64,000 nucleotides of DNA. It comes from Phenylobacterium sp. GTDB taxonomy: Bacteria; Pseudomonadota; Alphaproteobacteria; Caulobacterales; Caulobacteraceae. The notes under the pieces are model-generated. The model made no database searches and was not told the DNA's origin. It saw nothing but the letters and a program-made list of their open reading frames with translations. How positions within the stretch are numbered: position 1 is the stretch's first letter; each line of letters opens with the position of its first letter. The stretch is from NCBI RefSeq assembly GCF_030693625.1, contig NZ_JAUYAF010000002.1, positions 1 to 64,000 on the forward strand, written 5' to 3'. This document shows positions 6,521 to 21,159 of this stretch, in pieces. The translations under genes and the position numbers were made by a program.

Positions 6521-6961
6521 GTGTTGCCCCCGATCTTAGCGCGACCCCGTGATGATGGCCACCTGCCGGCGGGCCTCGCCTCAGCCTGAACCGCAGCTTG
6601 GCTCGGACAGACTTGCCGAAATCGAGCCCTGTTTCAACATCAGTCAGAAAGAGCAATGGAGAGAACCCGCAAAGGGTTGAAGTCATTTGGCTTAGATATT
6701 GGCTGATTGGCCTATATCTTTAGATGCAGAATCGCTCGATCTTTCTCAGCTTCTATTTGAACACACATTATCCGAACTGAATTCTCCCTATGGGAGTATT
6801 TAGATTTTCGGAAAACTCTCGGTTGCTCAACTGATAATAGTCAATCGGTTGCAAGCCGACCTCCGCTATGGGTGTGGCGTCCGAGCGCCTGGCAGAACAG
6901 CCCGAGACAGTGATCTCCGCGCCAGGCGCTGAGGCGGTGTAGAAGCGGGGGTTCAAATCCG
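6521..6961. promoter_or_regulatory. AT-rich divergent control region between the MucR-like gene and the LuxR-type regulator
   Basis: A 441-base region between divergently transcribed genes. The stretch about 6680-6850 is clearly AT-rich in a GC-rich window, which suggests promoters or binding sites of H-NS/MucR-like proteins. No ORF with coding character and no defined promoter could be assigned by eye. Confidence 0.4.
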
Positions 6962-7579
6962 ATGTCATTGGTCGTGGAGGAAAAGCCCATATGCCGATCG
7001 GCCCTGGGCCAGATTCTCCTCGAATGTCGCGGCCAGGGGCAACCACGCTTCGCCTCGTCCATGGAAGAGGCCATCGATGAGATCTCGATCGCCAAACCGA
7101 GCGTCACTCTGGTCGACCTGTTCACCGCGAACTATGATTTTCAGAAACTGAAGCAACTCGTCGTTCACGCCAAACCAGGCATGGTGATTGTCGTTGATGA
7201 CCGCGTGACTCCAGCCTTTGCCAGTCTTGCGAAGTGGGCGGGCGCGGCGGGCTATCTGACCAAGGACCTCGACGTGGAGGCGTTCAAGCACGCAATCACC
7301 ACCGCGATCGATGGCGGCGTCAATTTTCCCGCCGACCCCTCGAAGTCTTCAAACGCCCAAACCCAACCTGCGACCCGAGGACTGTCGGCGCGTCAGCTTG
7401 AAGTCCTTGGGCAACTGGCTCTGGGGAAATCGAACCAGGAGATCGCTGAGGCTCTAGAAATCACCACCGGGACGGTGAAGACTCATGTCCACACCGTCCT
7501 GACGCTGATCGGCGCGCGAAATCGGACCCATGCGGCATTGATCGCGGGAAGATCCCACGCCTCCTCCATCGTGCGATAG
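6962..7579 (+). CDS. LuxR/NarL-type response regulator, possible curli regulator
   Basis: A 205-residue two-domain regulator. The N-terminal half has the receiver layout (EEKPICRSAL, then VTLVDLF with the likely phospho-accepting Asp near 51, then GYLTKD with the conserved Lys). The C-terminal half is a LuxR-type helix-turn-helix: LSARQLEVLGQLALGKSNQE followed by TTGTVKTHVHTVL. The acidic pocket near the N-terminus reads EE rather than DD. Its position beside the curli genes makes a CsgD-like role possible, but this is inference from location. No partner kinase is adjacent. The start is ATG 6962; a G-rich run upstream is a weak ribosome site. Confidence 0.85.
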   Translation: MSLVVEEKPICRSALGQILLECRGQGQPRFASSMEEAIDEISIAKPSVTLVDLFTANYDFQKLKQLVVHAKPGMVIVVDDRVTPAFASLAKWAGAAGYLTKDLDVEAFKHAITTAIDGGVNFPADPSKSSNAQTQPATRGLSARQLEVLGQLALGKSNQEIAEALEITTGTVKTHVHTVLTLIGARNRTHAALIAGRSHASSIVR

Positions 7580-7712
7580 CGGACCTCGCCAACGTCTGAG
7601 CCCACCGCCGACTGCGGACCTTCTGGTACCCCGCGCACGCTGGCGTGAGCCCCCGCTGGTTCTGTCAGGGTAACGACCGCGGGCCGAAGAGGCCCCTCCC
7701 TCACGCTTCCGA

Positions 7713-7865
7713 TCAAACAGCGAAGGTCGCAGCCACCCACGTCTGACGGGCGACGGCCCGGAGGTGGCATAGGGTCTGTCGGCGGATGAGGAGCTGGAGG
7801 TTGAACACATTGTAGACGGCGGCATGGGTGGCCAGGAACTTCTGGGTCGAACCTTTTGCGCACAT
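7713..7865 (-). mobile_element. IS6-family transposase remnant (C-terminal end)
   Basis: The minus strand reads STQKFLATHAAVYNVFNLQ, then RRQTLCHLRAVARQTW and a TGA at 7713-7715. This is the C-terminal end of an IS6-type transposase (THAAVxNxFNxQRHLxSRxTLRxLR). Only about 50 residues remain, with no catalytic domain and no visible terminal repeats. A shifted frame just upstream (VRKRF) may be its continuation. The fragment lies directly behind the last gene of the curli group and may mark an old rearrangement there. Confidence 0.6.
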
Positions 7866-7934
7866 GGGACTGACGCGGCTCGGGCGTGACCTTGACCAGA
7901 TTGGCGTTGGTGCGGGCCTCGGCGGCCGCCCGCG

Positions 7935-8393
7935 CTAGCCGGGCGCGCGCAGGATAGCGATGGTCGGCGCGCCGGTGGCCGGGTCCGTCAATTGCGGAGT
8001 GCGAGTGATCGACTCCAGGTCCTTGGATAGTCGGTCCAGGTCCGTGCCGAGCGACGAAGGCGGCTCGGCCTCGCCCTCCCGACGCAGCGCCTCAAGCTGG
8101 CCGACCCCGCAGTCGAGGCCTTTCACGGCTTGCGCCTCGCCGCGCAGGATGGCCTCGCAGCGGTCCAGTGCGTTCCTGGGCTGGGCTATGGCGGTGCGGG
8201 CCCCGGCGCTGGACGGCACGTTCGCCACCGCCAGGGTCCTGCGCTGAGGCGTGAGGTTCTCCACCCGCACCGAGGCGCGCGTCACCGCCCCGGCAACCTG
8301 GTCGACCAGGATGTCAGGGTTCGGCGGTCCGGCGCGTGTTGCGCCGGCCGCCAGGATCAGGGTCGCGGCGGCGATGAGGATCGTGGCGCGCAT
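7935..8393 (-). CDS. Exported protein of unknown function at the end of the curli operon
   Basis: A 152-residue protein with a signal peptide (MRATILIAAATLILAAGATRA), so probably periplasmic. The mature part has two cysteines (DRCEAI and LDCGVG) and is mostly polar and helical; I do not recognise a family. The ATG follows GAGGATAGG and lies seven bases after the stop of the upstream curlin gene, so it is in the curli operon. CsgE and CsgC are not otherwise found here, so this protein could be a local accessory factor; that is inference. The 3' end may be damaged: a +1 shift near 7940 would extend it through ARLARAAAEARTNANLVK towards the IS6 remnant. Confidence 0.6.
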   Translation of the reverse strand: MRATILIAAATLILAAGATRAGPPNPDILVDQVAGAVTRASVRVENLTPQRRTLAVANVPSSAGARTAIAQPRNALDRCEAILRGEAQAVKGLDCGVGQLEALRREGEAEPPSSLGTDLDRLSKDLESITRTPQLTDPATGAPTIAILRAPG

Positions 8394-8400
8394 CCTATCC

Positions 8401-9300
8401 TCAGCGCGCCGTTACGATGGTCTGCACGTTCGCCTGCATCACCGAGACGTTGGTCACGCCGGTCAGCGTGATCCCACCCGCCACGGTGGAGGTCCCGTCC
8501 TGGACGATGGCGTAGGCGAGCCCGGAGCCGGTTTGGGTGAGGTCGGCGGAGTTGGCCTCGCCGGTCTGGTCGATCTGGCCGAGGTTGCCCGAGCCGTTCT
8601 GCTTTAAGGACGCATAGTTGTTGTCACCGTCCTGGGTCACCGTAGCGGTGTCGCCGGTGTCGCCCGCGAACCTCTGGATGATGCTGGCGAAGTTGCCGAG
8701 TATAGACGCGGTGAGCGTATTGTTCTGGGTGATGCTGGCGGTGCTCAGATCGGTTCCCTGGTTGATCTCAGCATAGGACCCGTCGGCCCCCGCGCCCTGC
8801 GCAATCCTCGCCGTGTCGTTCGAACCCGTTTGGAAGACGACGGCGGCGTAGGACGTTCTGGGATGCGTATTGGCCAGCACGCTGAGTGTGCCGGGGCTCA
8901 GCTGCGACTGCGCGCCAAGCGACGTTGCGCCGTCCGCCTGTAACTGAGTCACCGTTACCTGGTTGTTGTCGCCCTGCTGCCTGACGTAGACGCCCTGGCC
9001 AGCCCCGCCGATCTGGATGATCTGGGCGTTGTTCGAGCCGCCCGCGCCGCCTTCCTGCCTCACGTAGGCTGTGGCGCCCGAGCCGCCTTGATCGACGCAG
9101 GCGCTTCCATTCACCGACCGCGTCTGGGCGACCGTGGCCACTCCATAGGAGGCGCTGGCGTCTTGGACAATGCTGGCGAAGTTGCCGCCGCTCGTCGGAG
9201 TGCAGGTTGCGAGCGCCGGCGCGGCCCAGACCATGGCCAATGCCATTGTGACGATGGCGGAAGCTAAGATCCGCCGGAGGGGCGCGTGGAGGTTGAACAT
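8401..9300 (-). CDS. Curlin-repeat protein (second curli subunit)
   Basis: A 299-residue exported protein: signal peptide ending APALA, a Cys-containing start of the mature chain (TCTPTSGGN), then curlin repeats of the Q-x-G-x-x-N-x-A-x-V-x-Q kind, for example RQQGDNNQVTVTQ and TQDGDNNYASLKQNGSGN. Curlin repeats stack into the amyloid cross-beta core. It is longer than E. coli CsgA/CsgB (about 150) and its repeats are less regular, with a non-repeat insert near the middle, so it may be a minor or nucleating subunit. The start is placed at the second candidate (ATG 9300), giving a normal signal peptide. A strong hairpin separates it from the upstream curlin. Confidence 0.85.
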   Translation of the reverse strand: MFNLHAPLRRILASAIVTMALAMVWAAPALATCTPTSGGNFASIVQDASASYGVATVAQTRSVNGSACVDQGGSGATAYVRQEGGAGGSNNAQIIQIGGAGQGVYVRQQGDNNQVTVTQLQADGATSLGAQSQLSPGTLSVLANTHPRTSYAAVVFQTGSNDTARIAQGAGADGSYAEINQGTDLSTASITQNNTLTASILGNFASIIQRFAGDTGDTATVTQDGDNNYASLKQNGSGNLGQIDQTGEANSADLTQTGSGLAYAIVQDGTSTVAGGITLTGVTNVSVMQANVQTIVTAR

Positions 9301-9334
9301 CTCGAACTCACGTCTCACTGCGGCGGAAGGAAGC

Positions 9335-9360
9335 GCCGGGCGGCTGCGAAGCCGCCCGGC
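9335..9360 (-). terminator. Strong hairpin between the two curlin genes
   Basis: An 11-bp perfect inverted repeat, GCCGGGCGGCT and AGCCGCCCGGC, with a 4-base loop. It sits 10 bases after the csgA-like stop and 34 bases before the next start. There is no T-run, so it is more likely a partial terminator or an RNA-stabilising 3' structure than a full stop. Either would favour the upstream subunit over the downstream one. Confidence 0.6.
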
Positions 9361-9370
9361 GTCAACGCTG

Positions 9371-10351
9371 TTACTGGTTCACCGTCGCGTTATTATAGCT
9401 ACCGCCTTGGGTGATCGAGCTCACGCCCCCGACTACGGTTTGGTTGACTGTCGCCACGTTGATTGCGCCAGCTTGATCGATGACGCTCGTGCTCTTACTC
9501 GCCGCTTTTTGGGTCACCTTGGCCGTGTTGCCGTTGCCGTCCTGTTTGATAGTGCTTTCGTTGAGGTCAACCAAGTCCTGCACAACTTCGATGACGCCGC
9601 CCCATCCCTGACCGGTGATGGTGCTCCTGTTGTTGTTGCTATACTGGTTCACGGTGAAGCTATTGTTGTTGCCGGACCGGATGGAGGAGGAGAAGTTGTC
9701 GGCGCCCATCTGCGTCACGCTTATGCTTGAGTTCTCGCCCGACTGGGTGACGAGCGCGTAGGAACTGCTTCCCACCTGGTTCACTGTCGCGCTGTTGTTG
9801 TAGCCGACCTGGGTGACAGAGGCGTCGGTGCCGATCAGGGACAGGGCCTGGCTCTGGGTGATGGTGACAGTGTTGGCGTCGCCGGTCTGGGACACAAGGG
9901 CGTTCTGGTCCGGCCCGCCGCTGTTGCCGCTCTGGCCGATGGTGACGCTGTTCGTGCCGGACGCGTTCGTGCCGACCGCGTTGGACGCCTGAGTGACCTC
10001 GGCTACAGCGCCCGCGCCGGCCTGAGTTAGGCTAGCCGTGTTGGCCCTCGAGCCGCCGGACTGGCTGACCGTCGCAGAGGCGCGCAGCGAACCCACGACT
10101 TGGTTGATGGTCGAAGTGTTGGTCGCACCGCCCGCCTGGGTCACGCTCGCCACGCCCGGAACGCCGATCACGTTTACGCCCGACTGGGTGATGGTTGACT
10201 TACCATTCGTGGCGCTGGTCTGGGTGACAGTGGCGTTGTTGTACACCCCTCCCTGGGTCACGTTGCTGTCGTTGGCTGCGAGCGCTGCGGAGGCGCCAAA
10301 GCCGAGCGCCAAGGCCGAGGCGGCCCCGAGCGCGAGATGCTTAAAGTTCAT
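9371..10351 (-). CDS. csgA: Major curlin subunit, CsgA-like
   Basis: A 326-residue exported amyloid subunit. Signal peptide MNFKHLALGAASALALGFG then ASAALA. The mature chain is almost all curlin repeats rich in N, Q, S, T, V and G: NVTQGGVYNNATVTQ near the start and SSITQGGSYNNATVNQ at the very end, with about 14 repeats of roughly 20 residues between. This is about twice the length of E. coli CsgA. The ATG follows GGGAGAGTTAGGA. It lies downstream of csgG on the same strand with 38 bases between, and the products act in one pathway: secretion through CsgG, anchoring with CsgF, assembly on a CsgB-like nucleator. Confidence 0.92.
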   Translation of the reverse strand: MNFKHLALGAASALALGFGASAALAANDSNVTQGGVYNNATVTQTSATNGKSTITQSGVNVIGVPGVASVTQAGGATNTSTINQVVGSLRASATVSQSGGSRANTASLTQAGAGAVAEVTQASNAVGTNASGTNSVTIGQSGNSGGPDQNALVSQTGDANTVTITQSQALSLIGTDASVTQVGYNNSATVNQVGSSSYALVTQSGENSSISVTQMGADNFSSSIRSGNNNSFTVNQYSNNNRSTITGQGWGGVIEVVQDLVDLNESTIKQDGNGNTAKVTQKAASKSTSVIDQAGAINVATVNQTVVGGVSSITQGGSYNNATVNQ

Positions 10352-10389
10352 GGTCCTAACTCTCCCTTATGAATGGTGTTCGCGAGGCG

Positions 10390-11793
10390 TTATTCGCCCA
10401 GCCTTTGGATGGATCGCGCCGCCACATTTAAGCTGGCGGCCGAACGGACTTTGACAAGACAGTCGCGGCCTCGACCTTTTAGGGCGTCGCAGAAGGCCTG
10501 GGCGGCGGACGTATCGGAGAAGCCTTCGACAGATGCGCGATAGAAGGTCTGACCATCGCGCGCGACGGGCTCCACCCGCCGGGCCTTGCCCGCCACGAAG
10601 GTGGGGAACCTGGCGGCCGTGTCCGACCAGCCCGAGTGAGCCAGGGCCGCGGAGGCATAGGCTCCGATCTGCACCGCCACCCGGCCAGGCGCCTTCGCCG
10701 GTCGCGCCGCGAGCGTCGCGCGTTTTGGCGTTGTCGTACCGGGGAGGGTTGCAGCCATCGCCGCCGAAGGCGCAGGCCTGACATAGCTCGCCGGTATGAG
10801 CTCGGCCGTCGCCATGGGTTCACGCATCGCAGGGCGCGGCGTCTGCGGGGGAGGAGATGGCGTCTGAGCCGCCTCTGTTGGGACCGGGCGGCTTACGGGG
10901 ATCGGCTTTGGCGCGGGCTGCGCGCGAGCGCCGCTCAAGCTGGCCAGGTGCTGGTCGATCAGAGCCGAGCCTGCGAGCTTGTCTCCAAACGACCAAACGT
11001 TCAAACGGGCGCCTTCCAGCACCAGATCATAGGCCGCCTTCTGGACCGCCTGCTCCAGCGCGATGGTGCGCGGCTCGTTGACGGTGAAACCGGTCTCGGC
11101 CTCAAGCAGGTTCTTGTAGCTGACATAGCGGAAGGCGCCGCCTGAGATTCCCGCTGAGACAACCGTCTTGCGCACCACCACAGAGGCCAGCACCTCACCG
11201 GTCTTGGTGGCGACGGCCCGAAGGTAGACCGTGATAGTGTCTTGCCGGTAATCAGCGTTGGCGCCCACGCCCAGGAGCCGCGCCCCTGCGCCGCCAGTCA
11301 GCGTGTTGGTGTCGTAGCCGATGACCCCGCCTTCCAGCAGCACACCGGCAAACAGCAGCGATGGCAGAGCGTCGGGATTGACCGCACTCTCACCAAGGTA
11401 GCGCTGACGCATCTCGGTGATGACCTGACGCTCCTTCAGCAGGTTGTCCAGGTGTTCGCGCTCCAGCACCGTGAACCAGGTTCCGCCGCCGGCTTCACGC
11501 AACGACTGCACCAGCACCGAGGTCGCACCCTGCGTCAGGGCCCGCGAAAGGGTCTGGATGTTATCGGTTGGACTGAACTGGCCCGTCTGGTCGACGAAGC
11601 CATAGACCGCCACCGCCACCGGGGCTGCAGGGTGGGGCAGGTTGAGCAGGTCCTGACTGGATGACGAAACCTTGGCCGCCTGCGGTTGGCTGTAAAGCCG
11701 CGGTCGCGCCATGCCCTCGGGACCCGAGGCGCAACCCGCCAACGCGAGCGCCGCGCAGGAGGCGGCCCAGAGAGGTTTATTGCGGAGGGACAT
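10390..11793 (-). CDS. csgG: CsgG curli secretion channel with C-terminal SPOR domain
   Basis: A 467-residue outer-membrane lipoprotein forming the curli export pore. The lipobox is LALAGC (Cys21). The CsgG domain covers about 40-285: VAVAVYGFVDQTGQFSP, TWFTVLEREHLDNLLKERQ, GGVIGYDTNTLTGGAGARLL and ALEQAVQKAAYDLVLEGARL all fit the family. CsgG normally ends there (E. coli about 277 residues). Here a Pro-rich linker (about 295-365) leads to a SPOR domain (about 370-450: VAVQIGAYASAALAHSGWSD, ... FYRASVEGFSDTSAAQAFCD). SPOR domains bind denuded peptidoglycan, so this channel may be held at septal or polar wall. Its start lies 12 bases after the csgF stop, so both are in one operon. Confidence 0.93.
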   Translation of the reverse strand: MSLRNKPLWAASCAALALAGCASGPEGMARPRLYSQPQAAKVSSSSQDLLNLPHPAAPVAVAVYGFVDQTGQFSPTDNIQTLSRALTQGATSVLVQSLREAGGGTWFTVLEREHLDNLLKERQVITEMRQRYLGESAVNPDALPSLLFAGVLLEGGVIGYDTNTLTGGAGARLLGVGANADYRQDTITVYLRAVATKTGEVLASVVVRKTVVSAGISGGAFRYVSYKNLLEAETGFTVNEPRTIALEQAVQKAAYDLVLEGARLNVWSFGDKLAGSALIDQHLASLSGARAQPAPKPIPVSRPVPTEAAQTPSPPPQTPRPAMREPMATAELIPASYVRPAPSAAMAATLPGTTTPKRATLAARPAKAPGRVAVQIGAYASAALAHSGWSDTAARFPTFVAGKARRVEPVARDGQTFYRASVEGFSDTSAAQAFCDALKGRGRDCLVKVRSAASLNVAARSIQRLGE

Positions 11794-11805
11794 GTGCGAT
11801 GTTCC

Positions 11806-12249
11806 CTAGCGGCCGGTCAGGAGAACGGGGACCGAAATGGTGGTGGTCTGGCCCGTGGTCGCGTCGAAGATATCAATGGCCACAGCGTCGAGGCCGCGGG
11901 CGAACTTTATGGTCTGGCTACCGAAGACGATTTCGCCACTGTTTTGCGGGTTGCTCCCAAAGATCGCCTCGGTAACGTTGGAGGCTAGCGCCGAGAGGAA
12001 GCGGCTCTGCAGCTGCTGAAGGAATTGGGTCGCCTGGGTCTGGCTGGCGTTGGTCGCCGCCGCGGCCGTGGGGGGGGCGTAATTGTTCTGCGCGTTCGCG
12101 ACGCTCAGGAGGTGCGCCGAGTTGCCGGGATTTCCGCCAAATGACGGATTGACCGGCGTGTAGGTCAGTTGGGCTGCTTGCGCCTCTTGGGACGAAAGGA
12201 TGCAAGCAAGTGTTGTCAGAGCGAAAACGCCAAATTTTGAGAGAGACAT
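11806..12249 (-). CDS. csgF: CsgF curli assembly factor
   Basis: A 147-residue exported protein that caps the CsgG pore and couples secretion to nucleation. Signal peptide MSLSKFGVFALTTLACILSS ending EAQA, mature start AQLTYTPVNPSFGGNP, which is the conserved pore-inserting N-terminus of CsgF. The middle is Ala/Gln-rich and helical, and the C-terminal half (GEIVFGSQTIKFARG... TTTISVPVL) is beta-rich as in the family. The start is placed at ATG 12249 because it gives this signal peptide. It is the first gene of the csgF-csgG-csgA-curlin group; ATTTTGAG half-sites and an inverted repeat lie upstream. Confidence 0.93.
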   Translation of the reverse strand: MSLSKFGVFALTTLACILSSQEAQAAQLTYTPVNPSFGGNPGNSAHLLSVANAQNNYAPPTAAAATNASQTQATQFLQQLQSRFLSALASNVTEAIFGSNPQNSGEIVFGSQTIKFARGLDAVAIDIFDATTGQTTTISVPVLLTGR

Positions 12250-12635
12250 CAGTCTATCCACGTCCAAAATATTTTGAGATTTAAGTCGTTGCGTTAACCG
12301 CGAGATCCTCGCCCTATTGAATCGTGCGATAAACATTTGTTCGCCAGATATCCGTTCGCCAATTCATCACTGTCGCACTTCCGTATTCAGATGCGCTCAC
12401 AAGCACTTCGCCGTTGGCCTCCAGAACGTCGTAGAAATCTGGTCTTGGGAAGCCTCGCCGCCCCATTTTGAGGCAACGGGCGGTTATATCCGCCTCAAAA
12501 TGAGGCGCCGTTTCACGGTTTTAAACGAACTGTTAGGAGGCCGGCGCGGTCAATTGCAGTGACCGGAGGCCGGGATTTCCGCTTAAGAAATCAAGACTTA
12601 ATGCGAAGGGGCTCTGGCATATTTTACAGCGATGT
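12250..12635 (-). promoter_or_regulatory. Control region upstream of csgF
   Basis: A 386-base gene-free region between regulator 1 and csgF. It contains two ATTTTGAG half-site copies near the gene (12271-12278, and one at 12234-12241 just inside csgF), a perfect 12-bp palindrome CAAAATATTTTG at 12265-12276, and the inverted repeat at 12461-12505. It is more AT-rich than its surroundings. I infer that this is the promoter of the csgF operon; no clear sigma-70 or sigma-54 elements were assigned. Confidence 0.5.
12461..12505. repeat. Inverted repeat A (CCCCATTTTGAGGC ... GCCTCAAAATGAGG)
   Basis: Two 14-base arms with one mismatch lie at 12461-12474 and 12492-12505, 31 bases centre to centre. 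The same arms, with the same 31-base spacing but different inner sequence, recur at 13718-13760. It lies about 210 bases upstream of csgF. It could be an operator for paired dimers three helical turns apart, or an RNA hairpin at the 3' end of regulator 1. Confidence 0.65.
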
Positions 12636-13619
12636 CTAGCAGGGCGACTTCGCCGGCCGGACAGTGACGATTCGATGAATCTGCTCTGTCATCACAAGAA
12701 GCAAAGCCGGAAGGTCGCCACTGATCTTTAGAAAAGCAGGCGCGAGCGTGACCTCGGTTGGAATGACGAGGCCCTCCCCACGCCGCTCAACAAGACCGAT
12801 CTCCACCAGGCGGCTGACATAGCGTCGTGTCGTTTCGGCAGGGTAGTTGGCGGCTCGGGCGATGCTCCTGATGCTAGCGGGCCGTCGCAACGCGTCCGGG
12901 ACCGGTGGGTCCAGCAGGGCGTATTTCAACGCCAGATCGTCGTCCTCAAGAAGAGGCCGATTGTTTTCGTTGAAAATGCAGAGAAATGCGTCTGCAGCCC
13001 CCAGATTTCGTTCGAATATGAGCATGTTTGCAGTCGCATATCGCACGATGCTATCGAGCAGCAGGAGCACCCTTAGCCGTCTGCCGATTTGAACATTTTC
13101 CTGCTCCTGATCCCAGGGGCAAGGATTGAGCACCAGGGGAAGAAGAGCGGGGAAATCCACACTCCAACGCTCGAGCTCCCCGTACATCGACCTCAGTAAA
13201 CTCTCAGTCTGTTGCGACGCGGTTTCGATGTAGTCGATGCCGTAAGATGACGACCTGACGATCATACCGGCAGCCGGGCGCTCACAAAGGCCGCGTTCGA
13301 TCAAGCGCTTGGACGATCGGCGCACCGTCTCAACGTCGTGACCCAGTCTGGCGCCCAGCCCCCGCACCGAGATGGGTCGGCGAAGGGAGTCTGGAAACTT
13401 TCCGTCCAAGAAGAGTTGGAACAGGCCCTCATGGGCGAAAATGAATTCTATGTTCGCCAGATCTATGGTGGGCCACGCCATCGCGCTGAGATGGTCGCCG
13501 CCGAAGGCGCGACGCCAAACCATCGAGGCCTGGAAGGCGCAGGCGAGGACGATGCGGGTCAGCAGCCTGACCGGCACGGCGTCACTCGCAGCCTGCTGGT
13601 GAAGCCGATGGGCCGTCAT
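12636..13619 (-). CDS. Regulator 1: tandem winged-helix protein of unrecognised family
   Basis: A 327-residue soluble protein with no signal peptide. The N-terminal helical part contains PVRLLTRIVLACAF. Two winged-helix-like segments are visible: about 68-120 (RRPISVRGLGARLGHDVETV, then LIERGLCERP) and about 235-285 (RRPASIRSIARAANYPAETT, then LVEIGLVERRGEG). Between them is a helical stretch with IFERNLGAADAFLCIFNENN. Two paralogues follow upstream (13767-14720, 14793-15752), and this is the most divergent copy. I know no named family for it. Its place between csgF and a csgB-like gene suggests control of curli genes. The start ATG 13619 lacks a clear ribosome site. Confidence 0.75.
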   Translation of the reverse strand: MTAHRLHQQAASDAVPVRLLTRIVLACAFQASMVWRRAFGGDHLSAMAWPTIDLANIEFIFAHEGLFQLFLDGKFPDSLRRPISVRGLGARLGHDVETVRRSSKRLIERGLCERPAAGMIVRSSSYGIDYIETASQQTESLLRSMYGELERWSVDFPALLPLVLNPCPWDQEQENVQIGRRLRVLLLLDSIVRYATANMLIFERNLGAADAFLCIFNENNRPLLEDDDLALKYALLDPPVPDALRRPASIRSIARAANYPAETTRRYVSRLVEIGLVERRGEGLVIPTEVTLAPAFLKISGDLPALLLVMTEQIHRIVTVRPAKSPC

Positions 13620-13717
13620 CGGATGCGGTTAAGTGCTGCGGCCGGGTTTGCCATGTCGGTGCCTGGTCTCCTGCCCCAAACAAGTTCCAGAACCCAGGAC
13701 TTGGAAAGGCGGATTGG

Positions 13718-13760
13718 CCCATTTTGAGGGGCCCGCCCGCTTCGCGCGCCTCAAAATGGG
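13718..13760. repeat. Inverted repeat B (CCCATTTTGAGG ... CCTCAAAATGGG)
   Basis: A perfect 12-base inverted repeat at 13718-13729 and 13749-13760 with 19 bases between the arms, 31 bases centre to centre. It lies 7 bases after the stop of regulator 2 and about 100 bases before regulator 1. It may be an operator for regulator 1 or a terminator-like hairpin for regulator 2. There is no T-run behind it on the minus strand, which argues against a classical terminator. Confidence 0.65.
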
Positions 13761-13766
13761 GCGGCG

Positions 13767-14720
13767 TCAGGCCGCGACGAGGGCTGCCGCGACGCGGTCC
13801 ATGCGGCGAAGCATGAGGGTCAGGGAGCTGCTTATGTCGGCTGCGCTCTTGACGATCTCGGGTCGCGCCAGGGCCGCGTCAGACATGATGAAACCGTCAC
13901 CACGCCGTTCGAGGAGGTTCGCTTCAACGAGCTGGTGGACGTGGCGGCGCGTGGTTTCTACCGCATAGTCCAGCCGTTTGGCGATGGCGCGGATGCTTAT
14001 CGGCTCGCGCAGCTCGGCCGGCACAGGTGTCTCGAAGGTGGCGTAGCGCCGGTTCAGGTCGTCGTCGTCGAAGAACCGCCGGTGGTTGGCGCTGAACACA
14101 CAAAAGAAGACGCTGGAGCTCATGGTGTTGCGCTCGAAGATCCCCTGGCTCTCGATGCCGAACCTCAGGATGAACTGCAGGAATGTCAGCACGAACAACC
14201 GACGCACGAAGGTGGGGTTGGCGTGCGCGGCGTCCCACGGGCGGGCTCCGATGGATATTTGGGGCAAGGTGACGCCCCAGCGGTTGAGGTCCGCGAGCAG
14301 CGCACCCAACGCCTCAAGCGTTTGGCGTGAAGCGTGCTCGATGGCCTCGCGCTCATAGGCGGCGGAGGGAACTATCAGCCCCTCGGGCCGCCTTTCACAG
14401 AACCCGGCGTCGACCAAGCGCTTCGCCCAGCGGCGGATGGTCTCTGAATCAAGGCTTAGGCTCGCGCCCAGGGCGCGGACCGCGATCGGACGACGGACCT
14501 CGTCGTCGATCCGGCCCCGGCGAACCAAGCCTGAGAGCTCCGGGGGGCCGAACAGGTGATCGGTGTTGGCCAACTCGACCGACAGCCACATCAGTAGGCT
14601 CAGGCTATGGGCGTCGAAGGCTCGCCGCCAGGCGAGCTGGACCGGGAATGCATGATGCATCACGGCCCGCGTCACCAGCCGGACCGGTGGCGATGCGAAT
14701 GCTTGCTCCGGCGCACTCAT
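13767..14720 (-). CDS. Regulator 2: tandem winged-helix protein of unrecognised family
   Basis: A 317-residue paralogue of regulators 1 and 3. Same order: PPVRLVTRAVMHHAF at the N-terminus, first winged helix about 65-115 (RRPIAVRALGASLSLDSETI, LVDAGFCERRPEG), the helical middle with IFERNTMSSSVFFCVFSANH, and the second winged helix about 225-275 (REPISIRAIAKRLDYAVETT, LVEANLLERRGDG). The C-terminal helix (SLTLMLRRMDRVAAALVA) looks like an oligomerisation element. ATG 14720 is preferred over an upstream candidate because GAGGGAATAAGG precedes it. It lies 72 bases downstream of regulator 3 on the same strand. Confidence 0.78.
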   Translation of the reverse strand: MSAPEQAFASPPVRLVTRAVMHHAFPVQLAWRRAFDAHSLSLLMWLSVELANTDHLFGPPELSGLVRRGRIDDEVRRPIAVRALGASLSLDSETIRRWAKRLVDAGFCERRPEGLIVPSAAYEREAIEHASRQTLEALGALLADLNRWGVTLPQISIGARPWDAAHANPTFVRRLFVLTFLQFILRFGIESQGIFERNTMSSSVFFCVFSANHRRFFDDDDLNRRYATFETPVPAELREPISIRAIAKRLDYAVETTRRHVHQLVEANLLERRGDGFIMSDAALARPEIVKSAADISSSLTLMLRRMDRVAAALVAA

Positions 14721-14792
14721 CCTTATTCCCTCGAACCGGAGGGCCATACAGCCCAGTGTCCACGCGTCACCTCTCGCCGAAAGAAGGCGGCG

Positions 14793-15752
14793 TCAGTCCG
14801 CGGCGAGCGCGGTCGCGACGCGGTCCATGAGGCGCACCATCATCATTATCGAGGCGTTGACGTCAGTCATGCCCTTAATGAGCCCCGGCGCGGCCATGGC
14901 GTTGGTTGGCACGACGTACCCGGCGCCGAGCTTTTCGAGAAATCCCTTTTCGATTAACCGGTTGGCATGCCGACGTATCGTTTCATCCGGGTATCCCATG
15001 CGCTTGGCGACGGCGCGAATGCTGATCGGCTCGCGAAGCTCGGCCGGGACAAGGGTCTCCCAACTTGCGTAGCGCAGGTTCAGCTCATCATCCTCGAAGA
15101 ATGGCCGGTTGTTGGCGTTGAACACACACAGAAACACGCTGGAGGTCATGGTGTCGTTGTCGAAGATCGCCCGCGTCTCGACGCCGAAACGAAGGATGAA
15201 CTTCAGGTACAGGACGACGAACAGATGGCGCACGAAACTCGGATTTGCATGATCCGATTCCCAGGGCCGGCGCTCTATGACTTCCGAACGTTCGTGGAAG
15301 GCGATGTTCCAACGAGCGAAATCCCGGAACAGCGAGCTCAGCACCTCCAGGGAGGCGGCCGCAGCCTGAGCGATGTCCTCGCGCTCATAAGCCGCCGATC
15401 TTACGATCAGGCCGTCGTCGACGCGCTCGCATAGGCCGCGCTCGGCCAAGCGGTTGGTCCAGCGGCGCGTGGTCTCGGCGTCGAGGCCCAGGGTGGCGCC
15501 CAGCGCCCGCACGGTGATCGGCCGGCGGCGCTCGTCGGCCAGCCGACCCTCGCGGACTAGGCTGGTCAGGTCCTGCTGCTCGAACAGGTGCTCGGTGTTG
15601 GCGAGGTCCGTAGAGAGCCACATGAGCATGCTCAGGTGGTGACCTTCGAAGACCCCCCGCCAAGCCATTTCGGCCAAAAACGTATGGTGCAGCACGGTCC
15701 GGGCAATCAGCCGGACCGGCGGTGCATCGAACGCTGGGTGTGGCGCGAGCAT
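14793..15752 (-). CDS. Regulator 3: tandem winged-helix protein of unrecognised family
   Basis: A 319-residue paralogue, clearly close to regulator 2: APPVRLIARTVLHHTFLAEM, first winged helix RRPITVRALGATLGLDAETT with LAERGLCERVDDG, middle DNDTMTSSVFLCVFNANNRP, second winged helix REPISIRAVAKRMGYPDETI with LIEKGFLEKLGAG. The two winged helices resemble each other, so the protein itself may come from an internal duplication. The start is ATG 15752, with AGGAAC about eight bases upstream. The gene lies 49 bases after the csgB-like gene on the same strand and is probably cotranscribed with it. Confidence 0.78.
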   Translation of the reverse strand: MLAPHPAFDAPPVRLIARTVLHHTFLAEMAWRGVFEGHHLSMLMWLSTDLANTEHLFEQQDLTSLVREGRLADERRRPITVRALGATLGLDAETTRRWTNRLAERGLCERVDDGLIVRSAAYEREDIAQAAAASLEVLSSLFRDFARWNIAFHERSEVIERRPWESDHANPSFVRHLFVVLYLKFILRFGVETRAIFDNDTMTSSVFLCVFNANNRPFFEDDELNLRYASWETLVPAELREPISIRAVAKRMGYPDETIRRHANRLIEKGFLEKLGAGYVVPTNAMAAPGLIKGMTDVNASIMMMVRLMDRVATALAAD

Positions 15753-15801
15753 CCGTTTGTTCCTACAACGGAGGGAATATAGACTAGCTTTGGCGAGCGC
15801 A

Positions 15802-16215
15802 CTATTGCCGGACGATGGCCGTGTTGCCGGTCCCGGACTGGACGATGGACGAGACGCTACCGGCACCCACCGTCTGATAGACGAAGGCCTGATTCATCGA
15901 ACCCGACTGCACGATCAGGCTCCTGGCGGCTGCCGCGCTCTGGAGCACCTGCGCATAGAGGCCGCCAGCGTCGAGCCCACTTTCCTGGATGACCACGCTC
16001 TGCTGGCCCAGCCCCGTTTGCTCGACCAAGGCGTGGGAGTCCGCCAGGCCAGCGTGGAGCAAGACGCTGACATTGCCCACGTCGGCAACGGCGAGCAGGT
16101 CCCCCCGCTGGGCGGACGTCACTTGGTCGATCGAGACGACCGCCGCGCACGCCGGGCACGCGGCCGCTAGCAGGACAGCCGTCAATGCGCCCGCGATCTC
16201 TAAACGCCTCATCAT
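15802..16215 (-). CDS. Short curlin-repeat protein, CsgB-like nucleator candidate
   Basis: A 137-residue exported protein with signal peptide MMRRLEIAGALTAVLLAAAC followed by PACA. The mature chain has about five degenerate curlin repeats: VEQTGLGQQSVVIQESG, VQSGSMNQAFVYQTVG, and at the end VQSGTGNTAIVRQ. The close GNTAIV-type ending and short length are like CsgB, the minor subunit that seeds CsgA polymerisation, but sequence alone does not prove that role. Here it is separated from the other curli genes by three regulator genes, whereas csgB and csgA are adjacent in enterobacteria. Confidence 0.75.
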   Translation of the reverse strand: MMRRLEIAGALTAVLLAAACPACAAVVSIDQVTSAQRGDLLAVADVGNVSVLLHAGLADSHALVEQTGLGQQSVVIQESGLDAGGLYAQVLQSAAAARSLIVQSGSMNQAFVYQTVGAGSVSSIVQSGTGNTAIVRQ

Positions 16216-16621
16216 CCCACCACCCTATTTTCGGTGTCGAGGCCGCCGGCCATGGCTGGTCGGGTCTCGCGCCCATTAGTGGCTCCATGATGCGGCGGAG
16301 AGGTTTAGGTCCGGTGTATGGATGGCCGCCGGCAGACCCCATAGTTGTTGCGCGACGGCTCTGAAACCGGGTCCAAAGGTAATCGACCCTCGTCGAGCTG
16401 CTGATGGTGGCGGCGTCACAACGCCAAGAAAGCCTGCCAAACCCCATCTTCGCCAGTGCGCTCAGCAGAATATGAATGACTCCCGGATATTAGCAGGGAA
16501 CCTGGTGACGCCTGGAAGTTGGTCTGCCTCCAGAGCGCATCTGAGAGGGAAGTCCATCGCATTTCCTACTGATGGCGAGGTCGGATGGCCGCCTCGCCAC
16601 ACCTAAGACAGACGGTAACAG
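16216..16621. promoter_or_regulatory. Gene-free region upstream of the csgB-like gene
   Basis: A 406-base region between divergent genes. It must contain the promoter of the csgB-like/regulator transcript on the minus strand. I see no ORF with coding character, no copy of the CATTTTGAGG repeat arms, and no clear promoter boxes. Confidence 0.35.
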
Positions 16622-16917
16622 ATGAAGGAAATCGCGGCGGTTGAACTGGATCTGTCCTACAGCGCCGCGAAGGTGAGCGTCCAGGTGTTGGCGCCCGAAT
16701 GGGACGAGTACGAGGCGAACCTATAAATGTGGAGCGCAAGGTCAGTGGCGTCTCGAGCCTGCAGGCTCTCGCCCTTGGGCTGAAGACGCTTTCCGCATAT
16801 CTCTATGGGTCGGACCTCTACAAGAATGGCGAATTGGGGGTGTATGCGCAGTTCGGCGCCAGCCTCTCTATCCCGGCTCCCAAGGCAATGCTCGACAGAG
16901 CTCCGTTTCCCTTCTGA
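16622..16917 (+). pseudogene. Small conserved protein (DUF6968-like), split by a frameshift
   Basis: An ATG at 16622 opens MKEIAAVELDLSYSAAKVSV...APEWDEYEANL and stops at TAA 16724-16726. In another frame, the sequence from about 16717 continues as NVERKVSGVSSLQALALGLK then LSAYLYGSDLYKNGELGVYA and AMLDRAPFPF, ending 16917. Together these have the layout of small proteins of about 95 residues with an APEWDEYE-type first half and an SLQALALGLK-type second half. A one-base deletion (or a -1 shift) near 16720 would join the two parts. It is probably a recent pseudogene or a sequencing error. Function unknown. Confidence 0.55.
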
Positions 16918-17088
16918 TCGTCGATAGCCCTTCGTTTTGAAGACCAGTCGACCGCCGCCTGCGCCCACCGCCAGACAGTCAGGGCAAGTCCTCTCGGCCG
17001 ACCTCGCAAGGCAGCCCTATGCGACGCCCAGCCTCCCTGGCGGAGGTGGGACGTCGTCAAGGGTAAGGGCGAACCTCGGACGGGGGCG

Positions 17089-18879
17089 CTAGTTGAAAAG
17101 CCAATCCGAGCTGCTCAGTGCCGCTGGCTTGACCCCGTCGAGGTGGGTGATGGTGGTGGACCAAGGGTTGCTCGACCCCCAGCCGTCGGAGTCGAACAGG
17201 ACTGTCGTCCCACCATGGCCGTTGTCCTCCAGGCGCAGATAGCCGTCCGCCCGGGGGTCGCCCCCGCGATATCCGACCTGAGCAAACAGGGGCCGGAGGT
17301 CCAGGACATCGGCCCCGGGCTGGAAGTCGGTGATTCGCCCTGCGCTCCAGGGCAGGTCGCCAAAGACGAAATGGTCCCTTCCGGAGCCGCCGGTCAGCTG
17401 GTCGGCGCCGCGGCTGGCCTGCAAGGTGTCCGCGCCCGAACCCCCTACAAGCGGGGCGCCTGGGTAGTCCGAGATCAAGACGCGGCCTTCGCCGGCGGCG
17501 GCTGGCGCCGAGGGGCCGCCGCCTAGGACTTGGGCTGCTGACAGGCCGCTCGGCGAGACCCCTTCCAGAGTCACCACGTGGTAGGCGATCGTGCTTCCGC
17601 CCGCGAAGCCGTCCACGTCCATCATCACCTTCGTGCCGCCCACGCCGTCGGCGATGAGGCGGATATAGCCGTCGGCTACCGGATCGGAGCCGCCGTAGCC
17701 ATTGGCATACAGCGCCGAAAGGTCGAGTCGGTCGGTTCCCACCTGGAAATCAGTGATGCGACCCGCGCTCCAGGGCATCGCCTTGAACACGAACGTGTCG
17801 GCGCCCCCGCCTCCCGTGAGCCTGTCACTCCCCTGGCTCGCGTTGAGGACGTCGGCGCTCGAGCCGCCCGCGAGCGTCGCGCCTGGATAGGCCGACGTCA
17901 GGATCTGCCCCCCGCCGGCGGCTGGCGCCCCAGGCTGGGAGGTCGTTGCGCCGAACACATTGGCGGCGTTGAGTCCGCCTGGAGCCACCCCCTCCAGTGA
18001 GACGACGTGGTACTGGATGGTGCTGCCGCCATCAGGCCCGTCGACGTCCAGCATGACCTTGGCGCCGCCCTGGCCGTCCGCGGCGAAGCTGACATAGCCA
18101 TCCGCCACGGGGTTCGCGCCGCGATAGCCGTTGGCGTAGATCGCGGAGAGATCGAGCCTGTCGGTCCCCACCTGGAAGTCGGTGATCCGCCCGGCGCTCC
18201 AGGGCATGGCCTTGAAGGCGAAGGTGTCAGCACCAGCCCCCCCGGCCAGCTGGTCGCTGCCCTGGCTCGCATTGAGGGTGTCGGAGCCCGCCCCCCCGGC
18301 AAGGCTTGCCCCCGGGTAGGCCGCGGTCAGCACCTGGTCGGCGGAAGGCGCCGGCGGCTGCACACCGCCGCCCGGCGAGAACGGAGTGTCGTACCCGCCA
18401 AAGCGGCGCACATATTCCGAGACGGGGGTGTTGTAGCCGTCCGGCGTGTCGATGCGGCCCCCGGACTCCAGGAAGGACTTCAGCGCCCAGACGCCGACGA
18501 GGTGCCCTCCGGCGACCAGCCCCGACTCGGTGATCGGTCCGCCGCCGATCCACTGCCCGATGTACGACTTGAGGCCCAAGGCGGTCACGTCGTCGTTGAC
18601 CTTGGAGAACCAGGCCTGTGTGGCCGCGTCCTGAGCCGCCGGCGAACTCAGAAAGCTCGACTTGTCCCACACCCCGAAGGCGCCAGCCTTGGACGTCCAG
18701 CTCCCGGTGAAGTCGATCGTCGAGGTTGAGTCCCCATTGTAGAAGCCGACCGCCTGCAGGGCCTCTTCCCCGAACTGGAAGCGACCGAGATAGCCGAGGC
18801 TGCTCACGAACGAATAGTTGTTGCCGGACTCGTTCTGGCCAAGCGCGCGCCAGAAGTCCTCGTATGATCCAATAGCCAC
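17089..18879 (-). CDS. RTX-type secreted protein with lysozyme-like N-terminal domain
   Basis: A 596-residue protein with no N-terminal signal peptide, as expected for type I secretion. Residues 1-170 (YEDFWRALGQNESGNNYSFV, GYLGRFQFGEEAL, WFSKVNDDVTALGLKSYIGQ) resemble lysozyme/transglycosylase-like folds with a possible catalytic Glu in NESGN. Then come three near-identical units of about 135 residues, each with YPGA-LAGG-SDTLNASQGSDQL-GGAGADTF (calcium-binding GGxGxD-type) and MPWSAGRITDFQVGTDRLDL. The C-terminus (ALSSSDWLFN) is hydrophobic/polar like type I secretion signals. No type I exporter genes are near. Likely an extracellular wall-active or surface protein; the substrate is unknown. 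Confidence 0.75.
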   Translation of the reverse strand: MAIGSYEDFWRALGQNESGNNYSFVSSLGYLGRFQFGEEALQAVGFYNGDSTSTIDFTGSWTSKAGAFGVWDKSSFLSSPAAQDAATQAWFSKVNDDVTALGLKSYIGQWIGGGPITESGLVAGGHLVGVWALKSFLESGGRIDTPDGYNTPVSEYVRRFGGYDTPFSPGGGVQPPAPSADQVLTAAYPGASLAGGAGSDTLNASQGSDQLAGGAGADTFAFKAMPWSAGRITDFQVGTDRLDLSAIYANGYRGANPVADGYVSFAADGQGGAKVMLDVDGPDGGSTIQYHVVSLEGVAPGGLNAANVFGATTSQPGAPAAGGGQILTSAYPGATLAGGSSADVLNASQGSDRLTGGGGADTFVFKAMPWSAGRITDFQVGTDRLDLSALYANGYGGSDPVADGYIRLIADGVGGTKVMMDVDGFAGGSTIAYHVVTLEGVSPSGLSAAQVLGGGPSAPAAAGEGRVLISDYPGAPLVGGSGADTLQASRGADQLTGGSGRDHFVFGDLPWSAGRITDFQPGADVLDLRPLFAQVGYRGGDPRADGYLRLEDNGHGGTTVLFDSDGWGSSNPWSTTITHLDGVKPAALSSSDWLFN

Positions 18880-19443: not shown

Positions 19444-21159
19444 GTGTCCTCGGCGATCCTGAAGTTCGATTTCGCCTCCACCACCAGTTATAGCGGCGCG
19501 GTTCGCACGTTCGACGTCCTGCTCACCCAGGGCGGGACCACTGTGGCCAACTTCTATCACTTTGCGGCGCCGTTCCGGGATTCCGCCTGGAGCCCCGTGA
19601 CCCAGGTGTCGCTGGACATTGGCGCGACCCTGAACGCGCTCAGCGCGGGCGACTACAAACTGACCTTCATCGAAATCATCCCGGCCAACTTCACCGGCCC
19701 TGGCGCCTTTGGCCTGGACAACATCTCGCTCAACGCCACCTTCGGCCCCAGCAATGTGGCGCCGGTCGCCGTCGCTGACGCTTTCGCGGCTACCGAGGAT
19801 GGCGCGGCGATGACGCTGAACGTCCTGGCCAACGACACCGACGCCGACGCGGGCGACACCAAGACCCTGGTCTCGGTCGACACGGCCGGCACGATCGGGT
19901 CGGCGACCGCCAACGCCGACGGCACGGTGAGCTACAATCCGGGCGCCAACTTCCAGGCGCTGAAAGCCGGCGAAACGGCCACCGACACCTTCAGCTACAC
20001 GATGAAGGACACGGCGGGCCTGACGAGCACCGCCACCGTCACCATGACTGTCACCGGCGTCAACGATGGCGTTGTGGCCGTGGCCGACAGCGGCGCAGCG
20101 ACCGAGGATGGCGCGGCGGTGACGCTGAACGTCCTGGCCAACGACACCGACGCAGACGCAGGCGACACCAAGACCCTGGTCTCGGTCGACACGGCCGGTA
20201 CGATCGGGTCGGCGATCGCCAACGCCGACGGCGCCGTCATCTACGCCACAGGCTCGGCCTTCCAATCGCTGAGCGCCGGCGCGACGACCACCGACAACTT
20301 CAGCTACACGGTCCGCGATTCCGCCGGCGGCGAGAGCACGACCTCGGTGACCATGACCGTCACTGGCGTCAATGACGGGCCGGTCGCCCTGGCCGACGCG
20401 GGCTCGGTTTCCGAAGACCAGTCGCTGACCCTGGACGTCCTGGCCAATGACACCGATGTTGACGCCGGCGACTCCAAGACCCTGGTGTCGGTCTCTGCCA
20501 CCACCAGCGGCGCCAGCGTCGCCATCGTCGATGGCAAGGTGGTCTATACCGCCGACGCCGACAGCCAGGACCTGCTGACCGCCGGCCAGACCGCCGTGGA
20601 CAGCTTCACCTATGTGATGGCCGACTCGGCGGGCGCGACCAGCACCGCGACGGTCAGCGTGGCGGTTGGCGGTGTCGCCAATGGGGCCAACATCCTGGGC
20701 ACGGTGAAGGCCGACGCCCTGTCTGGGACAGAAGCTGACGAGCGTATCGAGGGCGGCAATGGCGACGACACCGTCAATGGCGCCGGCGGGGCCGACAACC
20801 TCTTTGGCGGTAACGGCGGCGACCAGCTGTTCGGCGGGGCGGGCATCGACCAACTCTCCGGCGAGAATGGCTCCGACACCCTCTCAGGTGGGGCCGGCAA
20901 TGACATCCTGACGGGCGGGAACGGGCCGGACCGCTTTGTCTTCGGCGCTGGTTTCGGCAACGATACGATCACCGACTTCAAAGCGCAGAACGACAGCATC
21001 CAGATCGACCACACACTGGTGGGCAGCTTTGGGGACCTGATAAGCCACGCCTCCCAGGTCGGGAGCTCGGTGGTGATCGCGTTGGACGCCGCCCACTCGA
21101 TCACGCCGCAGGGCGTGATCCTGGCCAGCCTGAGCAGCGGCGACTTCGTCTTCTCCTGA
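19444..21159 (+). CDS. RTX adhesin-like protein with cadherin/VCBS-type repeats, probably 5'-truncated
   Basis: A 571-residue chain from GTG 19444. Residues 1-100 look like a beta-sandwich (ILKFDFASTTSYSGAVRTFD... FGLDNISLNATF). Then three repeats of about 100 residues follow (PVAVADAFAATEDGAAMTL, NVLANDTDADAGDTKTLVSV, ... TVTMTVTGVNDG), typical of cadherin-like/VCBS adhesin modules. The C-terminal about 150 residues carry GGNGDD-, GGNGGDQLFGGAGID- and GGAGNDILTGGNGPD-type calcium-binding nonapeptides and end SSGDFVFS, fitting type I secretion. Coding potential continues upstream of the GTG but is broken by TAA 19369, so the native N-terminus is probably lost; GAGG five bases before the GTG could still start translation. 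Confidence 0.7.
   Translation: MSSAILKFDFASTTSYSGAVRTFDVLLTQGGTTVANFYHFAAPFRDSAWSPVTQVSLDIGATLNALSAGDYKLTFIEIIPANFTGPGAFGLDNISLNATFGPSNVAPVAVADAFAATEDGAAMTLNVLANDTDADAGDTKTLVSVDTAGTIGSATANADGTVSYNPGANFQALKAGETATDTFSYTMKDTAGLTSTATVTMTVTGVNDGVVAVADSGAATEDGAAVTLNVLANDTDADAGDTKTLVSVDTAGTIGSAIANADGAVIYATGSAFQSLSAGATTTDNFSYTVRDSAGGESTTSVTMTVTGVNDGPVALADAGSVSEDQSLTLDVLANDTDVDAGDSKTLVSVSATTSGASVAIVDGKVVYTADADSQDLLTAGQTAVDSFTYVMADSAGATSTATVSVAVGGVANGANILGTVKADALSGTEADERIEGGNGDDTVNGAGGADNLFGGNGGDQLFGGAGIDQLSGENGSDTLSGGAGNDILTGGNGPDRFVFGAGFGNDTITDFKAQNDSIQIDHTLVGSFGDLISHASQVGSSVVIALDAAHSITPQGVILASLSSGDFVFS

Follow-up and report, generated by a model that had tools for sequence, protein, structure and literature searches.

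A 64,000-nucleotide stretch of DNA from Phenylobacterium sp. (assembly GCF_030693625.1, contig NZ_JAUYAF010000002.1, positions 1 to 64,000; referred to below as the window) carries a curli (csg) locus, in which genes for CsgF, CsgG and curlin-repeat proteins occur together. Between csgF and a csgB-like curlin gene of this locus lie three paralogous genes, here called H1, H2 and H3. As judged from their sequences and predicted structures, their products are MarR-like regulators that were fused into single-chain pseudo-dimers and recruited into the curli locus, together with two putative twin operators. The homodimer usual for MarR proteins has apparently become a single chain, whose DNA-binding halves would be free to evolve separately.

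The explanation preferred here, to which we assign a probability of roughly one half, is that H1-H3 are dedicated to curli, that at least one of them binds the twin palindromes and that the locus thereby runs a private feedback loop. The locus suggests a local switch for fibre production other than CsgD; it exposes an unnamed regulator family and offers concrete candidates in the form of its three proteins and a pair of short DNA elements.

Two MarR-like modules in one chain

An earlier reading of the bare sequence (the original prediction) had placed three paralogues of about 320 residues head to tail between csgF and the csgB-like gene. They correspond to the minus-strand open reading frames (ORFs) H1 (positions 12636-13619, 327 amino acids), H2 (13767-14747, 326 amino acids) and H3 (14793-15752, 319 amino acids), which share 40, 42 and 56% identity in pairwise comparison. 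The start of H3 is the ATG at 15752, and its ORF has an alternative open GTG start at 15866.

Each protein yielded two winged-helix matches in Pfam, near residues 75-120 and 240-285, and the two winged-helix segments per chain proposed earlier were thus recovered. They are not two different winged helices, however, but two copies of one module: the halves of each H protein are homologous to each other and comprise about 155 residues each. The (F/D)xN...SxxFxCxFxxN stretch, previously described as a shared helical core, is indeed common to all three proteins but forms the helical start of the second module rather than a core. The Pfam MarR cut-off of 24.6 bits was exceeded by H2 (38.1 bits) and H3 (31.5 bits). 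Structure prediction agreed with the winged helices: H2 was modeled by AlphaFold2 (AF2) with a predicted local distance difference test (pLDDT) score of 91.7, and in the predicted structures both modules are MarR-like, with the N-terminal helices, winged helix and long C-terminal helix of the MarR protomer fold. Regarding conservation in a 60-member alignment, the motif ETxRR is conserved and the residues E102, R105, R106, T265 and R268 (H2 numbering) are invariant.

No named family was recognized in the original prediction, and searches of Pfam, NCBIfam, PADLOC and PHROGs likewise gave generic helix-turn-helix matches alone for H1-H3, although the absence of a database match does not exclude a family. 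PADLOC matches to Csa3, CARF and AbiEi were rejected, their coverage being limited to the winged-helix stretches. Comparison of the whole protein with the PDB gave no Foldseek match at E ≤ 0.001, the best E-values being 0.11 for the whole protein and 0.01 for a single module.

From the MarR family proper (MepR, MexR, E. coli MarR), in which one winged helix occurs per chain of about 140 residues, the H proteins differ by their chains of about 320 residues with two fused homologous modules, by their placement in a curli locus and by the weakness of the Foldseek values just given. CsgD is the LuxR-type curli activator of the Enterobacterales and carries a LuxR-type helix-turn-helix. H1-H3 resemble CsgD in being encoded in the curli locus that they are proposed to control, but they lack the combination of a LuxR-type C-terminal helix-turn-helix with a receiver-like N-terminus; neither GerE nor Response_reg was among the Pfam matches listed at E ≤ 1 (25 of 26 in the case of H3), and the CsgD-like protein of this locus is encoded by a separate gene (6962-7579). 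With IclR/TtgV-type regulators the H proteins agree in the DNA-binding part only, no match to an IclR effector domain being listed. The same two-module architecture is found in double-module proteins of other Caulobacteraceae (e.g., P0016, P0040 and P0068), which align with H1-H3 over their full length; these proteins are nevertheless distant from the group formed by H1-H3, and most genomes that encode them lack csgF. A survey of the open-access literature gave nothing relevant to fused MarR modules or to these proteins among the matches listed.

The H clade and a second curli locus

A search with distant paralogues from the same genome found 185 proteins, and among the best 120 of these 185 the labels were unnamed, hypothetical or those of assorted regulators (MarR, Lrp, ArsR). 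At E ≤ 1e-20, matches to this broad family occurred in 116 of 248 Caulobacteraceae genomes and in 10 of 22 genera, some of the matches listed being of half length. With a smaller profile applied at 1e-10, members were detected in 30 of the 36 genomes searched within the genus, against none of 24 from other families of the order. Because csgF was found in only 18 of 249 genomes of the family (5 of 101 in the genus), the broad family is not tied to curli, and a curli association at that level was rejected. In another genome (G093), 6.3 kb separate csgF from a broad-family double-module gene, but the latter falls outside the H clade described below; as read from the ORFs, it and an aquaporin-like gene overlap, with an ArsR-like gene nearby.

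The situation differs for the narrower group around H1-H3. In a 67-row tree, H1-H3, two orthologues from a second genome (G132) and nine database proteins form a clade of 14 rows (the H clade), with a support of 100/100 and a stem whose length is 1.61 changes per column. Among the nine database members, one is identical to H2 of G132 and another nearly identical to its H1; the genomic context of the clade is known from the two genomes, the seven further members (P0005-P0011) being metagenomic database proteins. Within the clade, H3 is sister to the H2 group (100/99), while H1 belongs to a separate group (100/99). Of 390 genomes of the family, two gave matches as strong as those of the clade itself (2.4e-154 or better), namely the own genome and G132, and in both the matches lie in csg loci. 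Homologues are thus widespread without curli genes as far as the broad family is concerned, but not in the case of the H clade where its context is known. At the sensitivity used, neither relatives of the clade in viral contigs (clade profile) nor relatives of H3 in plasmids were detected.

The csg locus of G132 is syntenic with that of the window, so that the placement of these regulators in a curli locus, which the original prediction had described for one genome, is conserved in a second one. Identities are 77% for the csgB-like protein, 92.5% for H2, 71% for H1, 83% for CsgF and 77% for CsgG; the locus also holds three curlins, a 152-amino-acid protein (96%) and a LuxR-type regulator (94%). 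The ratios of nonsynonymous to synonymous substitution rates (dN/dS), computed between the window and G132 by the Nei-Gojobori method (NG86), were 0.18 for H1, 0.26 for H2, 0.14 for csgF, 0.19 for csgG, 0.34 for the csgB-like gene, 0.41 for the LuxR-type gene, 0.48 for the gene of the 152-amino-acid protein and 0.55 and 0.72 for the curlins. H1 and H2 are therefore under purifying selection, and their ratios and conserved position show that the arrangement is not due to chance. The synonymous divergence (dS) along the locus (window 6683-16973 against L030) ranges from 0.04 (152-amino-acid protein) to 1.08 (H1), H1 forming a diverged block with csgF, csgG and the curlins; because of this variation, the locus looks like a recombination mosaic. 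The split between H3 and H2 is older than that between the H2 genes of the two genomes, and G132 has probably lost H3, unless H3 was acquired by transfer.

Some relatives elsewhere have simpler or different settings. Two adjoining single-module relatives (L021, 5490-6089 and 6555-7019) were read downstream of an ispG-like gene, and similar pairs occur in L062-L065; such pairs are possible ancestors of the fused form. In locus L079 (5539-8975) of the genome G061, a broad-family double-module protein and shorter relatives lie just upstream of a gene for a putative exported protein, another hint of links between the family and surface proteins.

Twin palindromes and proposed control of the locus

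Two DNA elements that the original prediction had omitted lie beside these genes. When CATTTTGAGGC was searched for with at most one mismatch, four sites were found in the window (0.66 expected; four were reached in none of 100 shuffles), and these make up two elements of equal length with the structure CATTTTGAGG-N19-CCTCAAAATG. IR-A (13720-13758) lies in the gap between H2 and H1, 8 bp past the stop of H2 and 100 bp ahead of the start of H1; IR-B (12464-12502) lies in the gap between H1 and csgF, 127 bp ahead of the first ATG of the csgF ORF. G132 has both elements at the matching places, one of them with a single mismatch. Among the 390 genomes of the family, the twin palindrome (at most two mismatches) was found in two, with two copies each, all at the csg locus, and a reversed-pattern control gave none in either of them. 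The genomes with the palindrome are exactly those with clade-strength H proteins, and no further paired copies were found in the own or the G132 genome at up to three mismatches. A repetitive extragenic palindrome (REP)-like repeat or a mobile element was rejected because each genome has just two copies and none of these lies outside the csg locus.

Six of the eight arms match the near-palindrome CGCC(C/T)CATTTTGAGGCG with no more than one change. When up to one mismatch is allowed, the own genome contains the 15-bp arm motif three times, each time within the csg locus (reversed control, 1), a distribution consistent with a binding protein that serves this locus and not with a global one; of the five sites in G132, three are at the locus (control, 0). 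The 39-nucleotide IR-A is identical in the two genomes. In IR-B, 15 of 17 bases are conserved in one arm and 16 of 18 in the other, against 7 of 15 in the middle, whose length is unchanged, and 31 of the 50 bases beyond the element; as judged by eye, the well-aligning part of the gap between H1 and csgF is the stretch around IR-B. In each of the four copies, the distance between the arm centers is 32 bp, which arithmetically corresponds to about three helix turns. A second block, CTTyCCAAGnCC-N4-TTCT, about 10 nucleotides downstream, is common to all four copies and may be part of a promoter.

The motif is almost confined to one locus, DNA-binding proteins are encoded in that same locus, and the motif flanks H1, precedes csgF and tracks the H clade; for these reasons we infer that one or more H proteins bind the palindromes ahead of H1 and ahead of the csgF-csgG-curlin genes. 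Each H protein would act as a transcription regulator built as a pseudo-dimer of two MarR-like modules, belonging to a curli-dedicated clade within an unnamed Caulobacteraceae family. In the simplest geometry, one pseudo-symmetric chain would occupy each near-palindromic arm, and each element would carry two chains on the same face of the DNA. The locus would then control the gene of its own regulator as well as the export and fibre genes by private feedback. MarR proteins typically bind a palindrome close to their own gene, for which IR-A and IR-B are candidates here. They usually repress transcription and are relieved by a signal; by analogy, mainly repression, lifted by a signal, would be expected here as well. 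The LuxR-type regulator encoded at the other end of the locus is a likely second input and may be an activator.

Several observations weigh against this explanation. The score of H1 (23.4 bits) is just under the Pfam MarR cut-off. Because the clade and the palindromes are carried together by two genomes, their co-occurrence represents one shared history rather than many independent events. A third genome with a match (G061; 6.1e-52 in the search of 390 genomes) encodes, according to a quick tree, a tentative sister of the clade (Shimodaira-Hasegawa-like approximate likelihood ratio test (SH-aLRT), 98) on a long branch, with a placement that the program calls unsure; when added, this protein splits the clade stem, leaving 0.96 changes per column. 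BLAST gave no csg gene in the 9-kb stretch around it, and the search of the 390 genomes gave no paired palindrome in G061. The locus of G132 has no orthologue of H3, and three copies are therefore not required. In each IR-A one arm (thus two arms of the eight) deviates from the palindrome and reads TGGCCCATTTTGAGGGG, two of the five arm-motif sites of G132 lie away from the locus, and chance alone would give a spacing near a whole number of turns about once in three to four cases. A sigma-70-like promoter was called at neither IR-A nor IR-B; across the region, promoter and terminator calls did not exceed those in shuffled sequences (1 vs 1.0 and 3 vs 4.2). Finally, no clear site of the CATTTTGAGG type was found ahead of three paralogues from the same genome (C31, C29 and C76); the best one, CGGCGCATTTGGCGGCG, 199 bp before C31, scored 13.3 bits, compared with top scores of 11.8-18.9 in five shuffles of the window. 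(A weakly conserved GGGT...CCC palindrome does occur upstream of C31.)

It is unlikely, though worth serious consideration, that the palindromes are instead the target of the LuxR-type regulator or of another factor, with H1-H3 acting elsewhere or as accessories and the whole inherited as one block. The LuxR-type protein is more CsgD-like than H1-H3 and its gene is well conserved in G132, and only two genomes carry the block. The palindromes, however, flank H1 and precede csgF and are not beside the LuxR gene, and LuxR-type regulators occur in at least two other csg loci (L036, 10115-10726; L039, 7830-8684) that both lack the paired palindrome.

A role of IR-A and IR-B as RNA elements, i.e., processing or stability hairpins between cistrons, with H1-H3 again acting elsewhere, appears rather less probable. 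Both elements are situated in gaps between co-directional genes, IR-A directly after H2, one arm change in G132 preserves a G-U pair, and all four elements fold with -28.5 to -40.4 kcal/mol (values obtained without a shuffled control). The minimum-energy folds nevertheless differ among IR-A, the own IR-B and the IR-B of G132, which favors a function at the DNA level; in addition, the length of the spacer is kept but not its sequence, no intrinsic terminator was called at either element, and in the region no match to Rfam attained the gathering score. The one sub-threshold match, to a trypanosome snoRNA family (28.3 vs 50 bits), was taken as chance.

Equally doubtful is an extension of the preferred explanation, in which the diverged trio would compete for the two shared twin-palindrome operators and make fibre production switch-like, replacing or countering control of the CsgD type. 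The original prediction had gone further and proposed combinatorial control or a circuit generating phase variation or heterogeneity, of which no sign was seen and which we consider very unlikely. It would draw on three diverged paralogues, two of which were tested and found to be under constraint, and paired operators could yield cooperative, switch-like control; but G132 has two copies, the genes have one orientation in both genomes, no further paired elements were found at up to three mismatches, and no recombinase was noticed at the locus (the window as a whole not having been annotated). The least probable reading is that the family to which the H proteins belong is expanding and that they landed in the curli locus by chance: tandem pairs of family members exist elsewhere (L080, L082 and L083, chosen for being tandem), the G093 gene mentioned above lies near csgF outside the clade, and the locus recombines, but the conserved position and constraint of H1 and H2, the palindromes conserved beside the H genes and the lack of relatives of the clade in viral contigs and of H3 in plasmids at the sensitivity used argue against it.

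Other genes of the locus and other curli loci

Upstream of H3 in the co-directional run, the csgB-like curlin gene (15802-16215, minus strand) encodes a protein with a curlin repeat of 17.7 bits, below the Pfam cut-off of 20.7, and a match to the NCBIfam CsgB model (3.9e-7) that is also below its cut-off. Between H2 and H1, a 12-codon leader ORF (13616-13654, minus strand) was read from the sequence; its stop overlaps the H1 start codon (ATGA), and it is kept in G132 with one residue changed.

The remaining csg genes follow on the same strand. The gene csgF (11806-12336) was assigned by PF10614 (111.1 bits, E 5.7e-32) and csgG (10390-11793) by PF03783 (185.4 bits). CsgG carries a C-terminal SPOR domain (PF05036, 36.9 bits) that resembles the Caulobacter FtsN model; such a domain is, to our knowledge, unusual on the CsgG pore and may link this pore with peptidoglycan at the septum or the poles. 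Two curlin genes come next (9371-10351, PF07012 85.4 bits, and 8401-9318, PF07012 45.6 bits). The 152-amino-acid protein (7935-8393, minus strand) has a putative signal peptide, as judged by eye, and no Pfam match, and BLAST gave no match to it in 16 other csg loci. Adjoining the curli locus, two large proteins (17089-18879 and 19444-21159) show GGxGxD or cadherin-like repeats by eye and are perhaps further surface proteins.

The original prediction had expected curli control unlike CsgD, but a LuxR/NarL-type response regulator that it did not mention is encoded at the other end of the locus, on the plus strand (6962-7579; GerE 56.4 bits). Its similarity to the CsgD model (1.2e-12) and the best one, to MadR (7.6e-19), are both under the cut-off, and it is a candidate partner or rival regulator.

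For comparison, 20 csgF-positive genomes were considered (the 18 given above plus two more). Clade and palindromes were both present in two of them; the 18 other csgF loci showed neither in the stretch examined, some of these stretches being short contigs (L060, 4.2 kb; L044, 5.3 kb; L039, L040 and L048, about 11 kb). The open-access literature yielded nothing pairing Phenylobacterium with curli, which is weak evidence of absence. In G013, which belongs to a different genus, the gap between the csgB-like gene and csgF contains genes for a NarL-type regulator and a histidine kinase, and this slot therefore holds different regulators in different genera. In L039 (5986-8684), from another genus, a histidine kinase/NarL-type pair fills the gap that is occupied by H1-H3 in the window.

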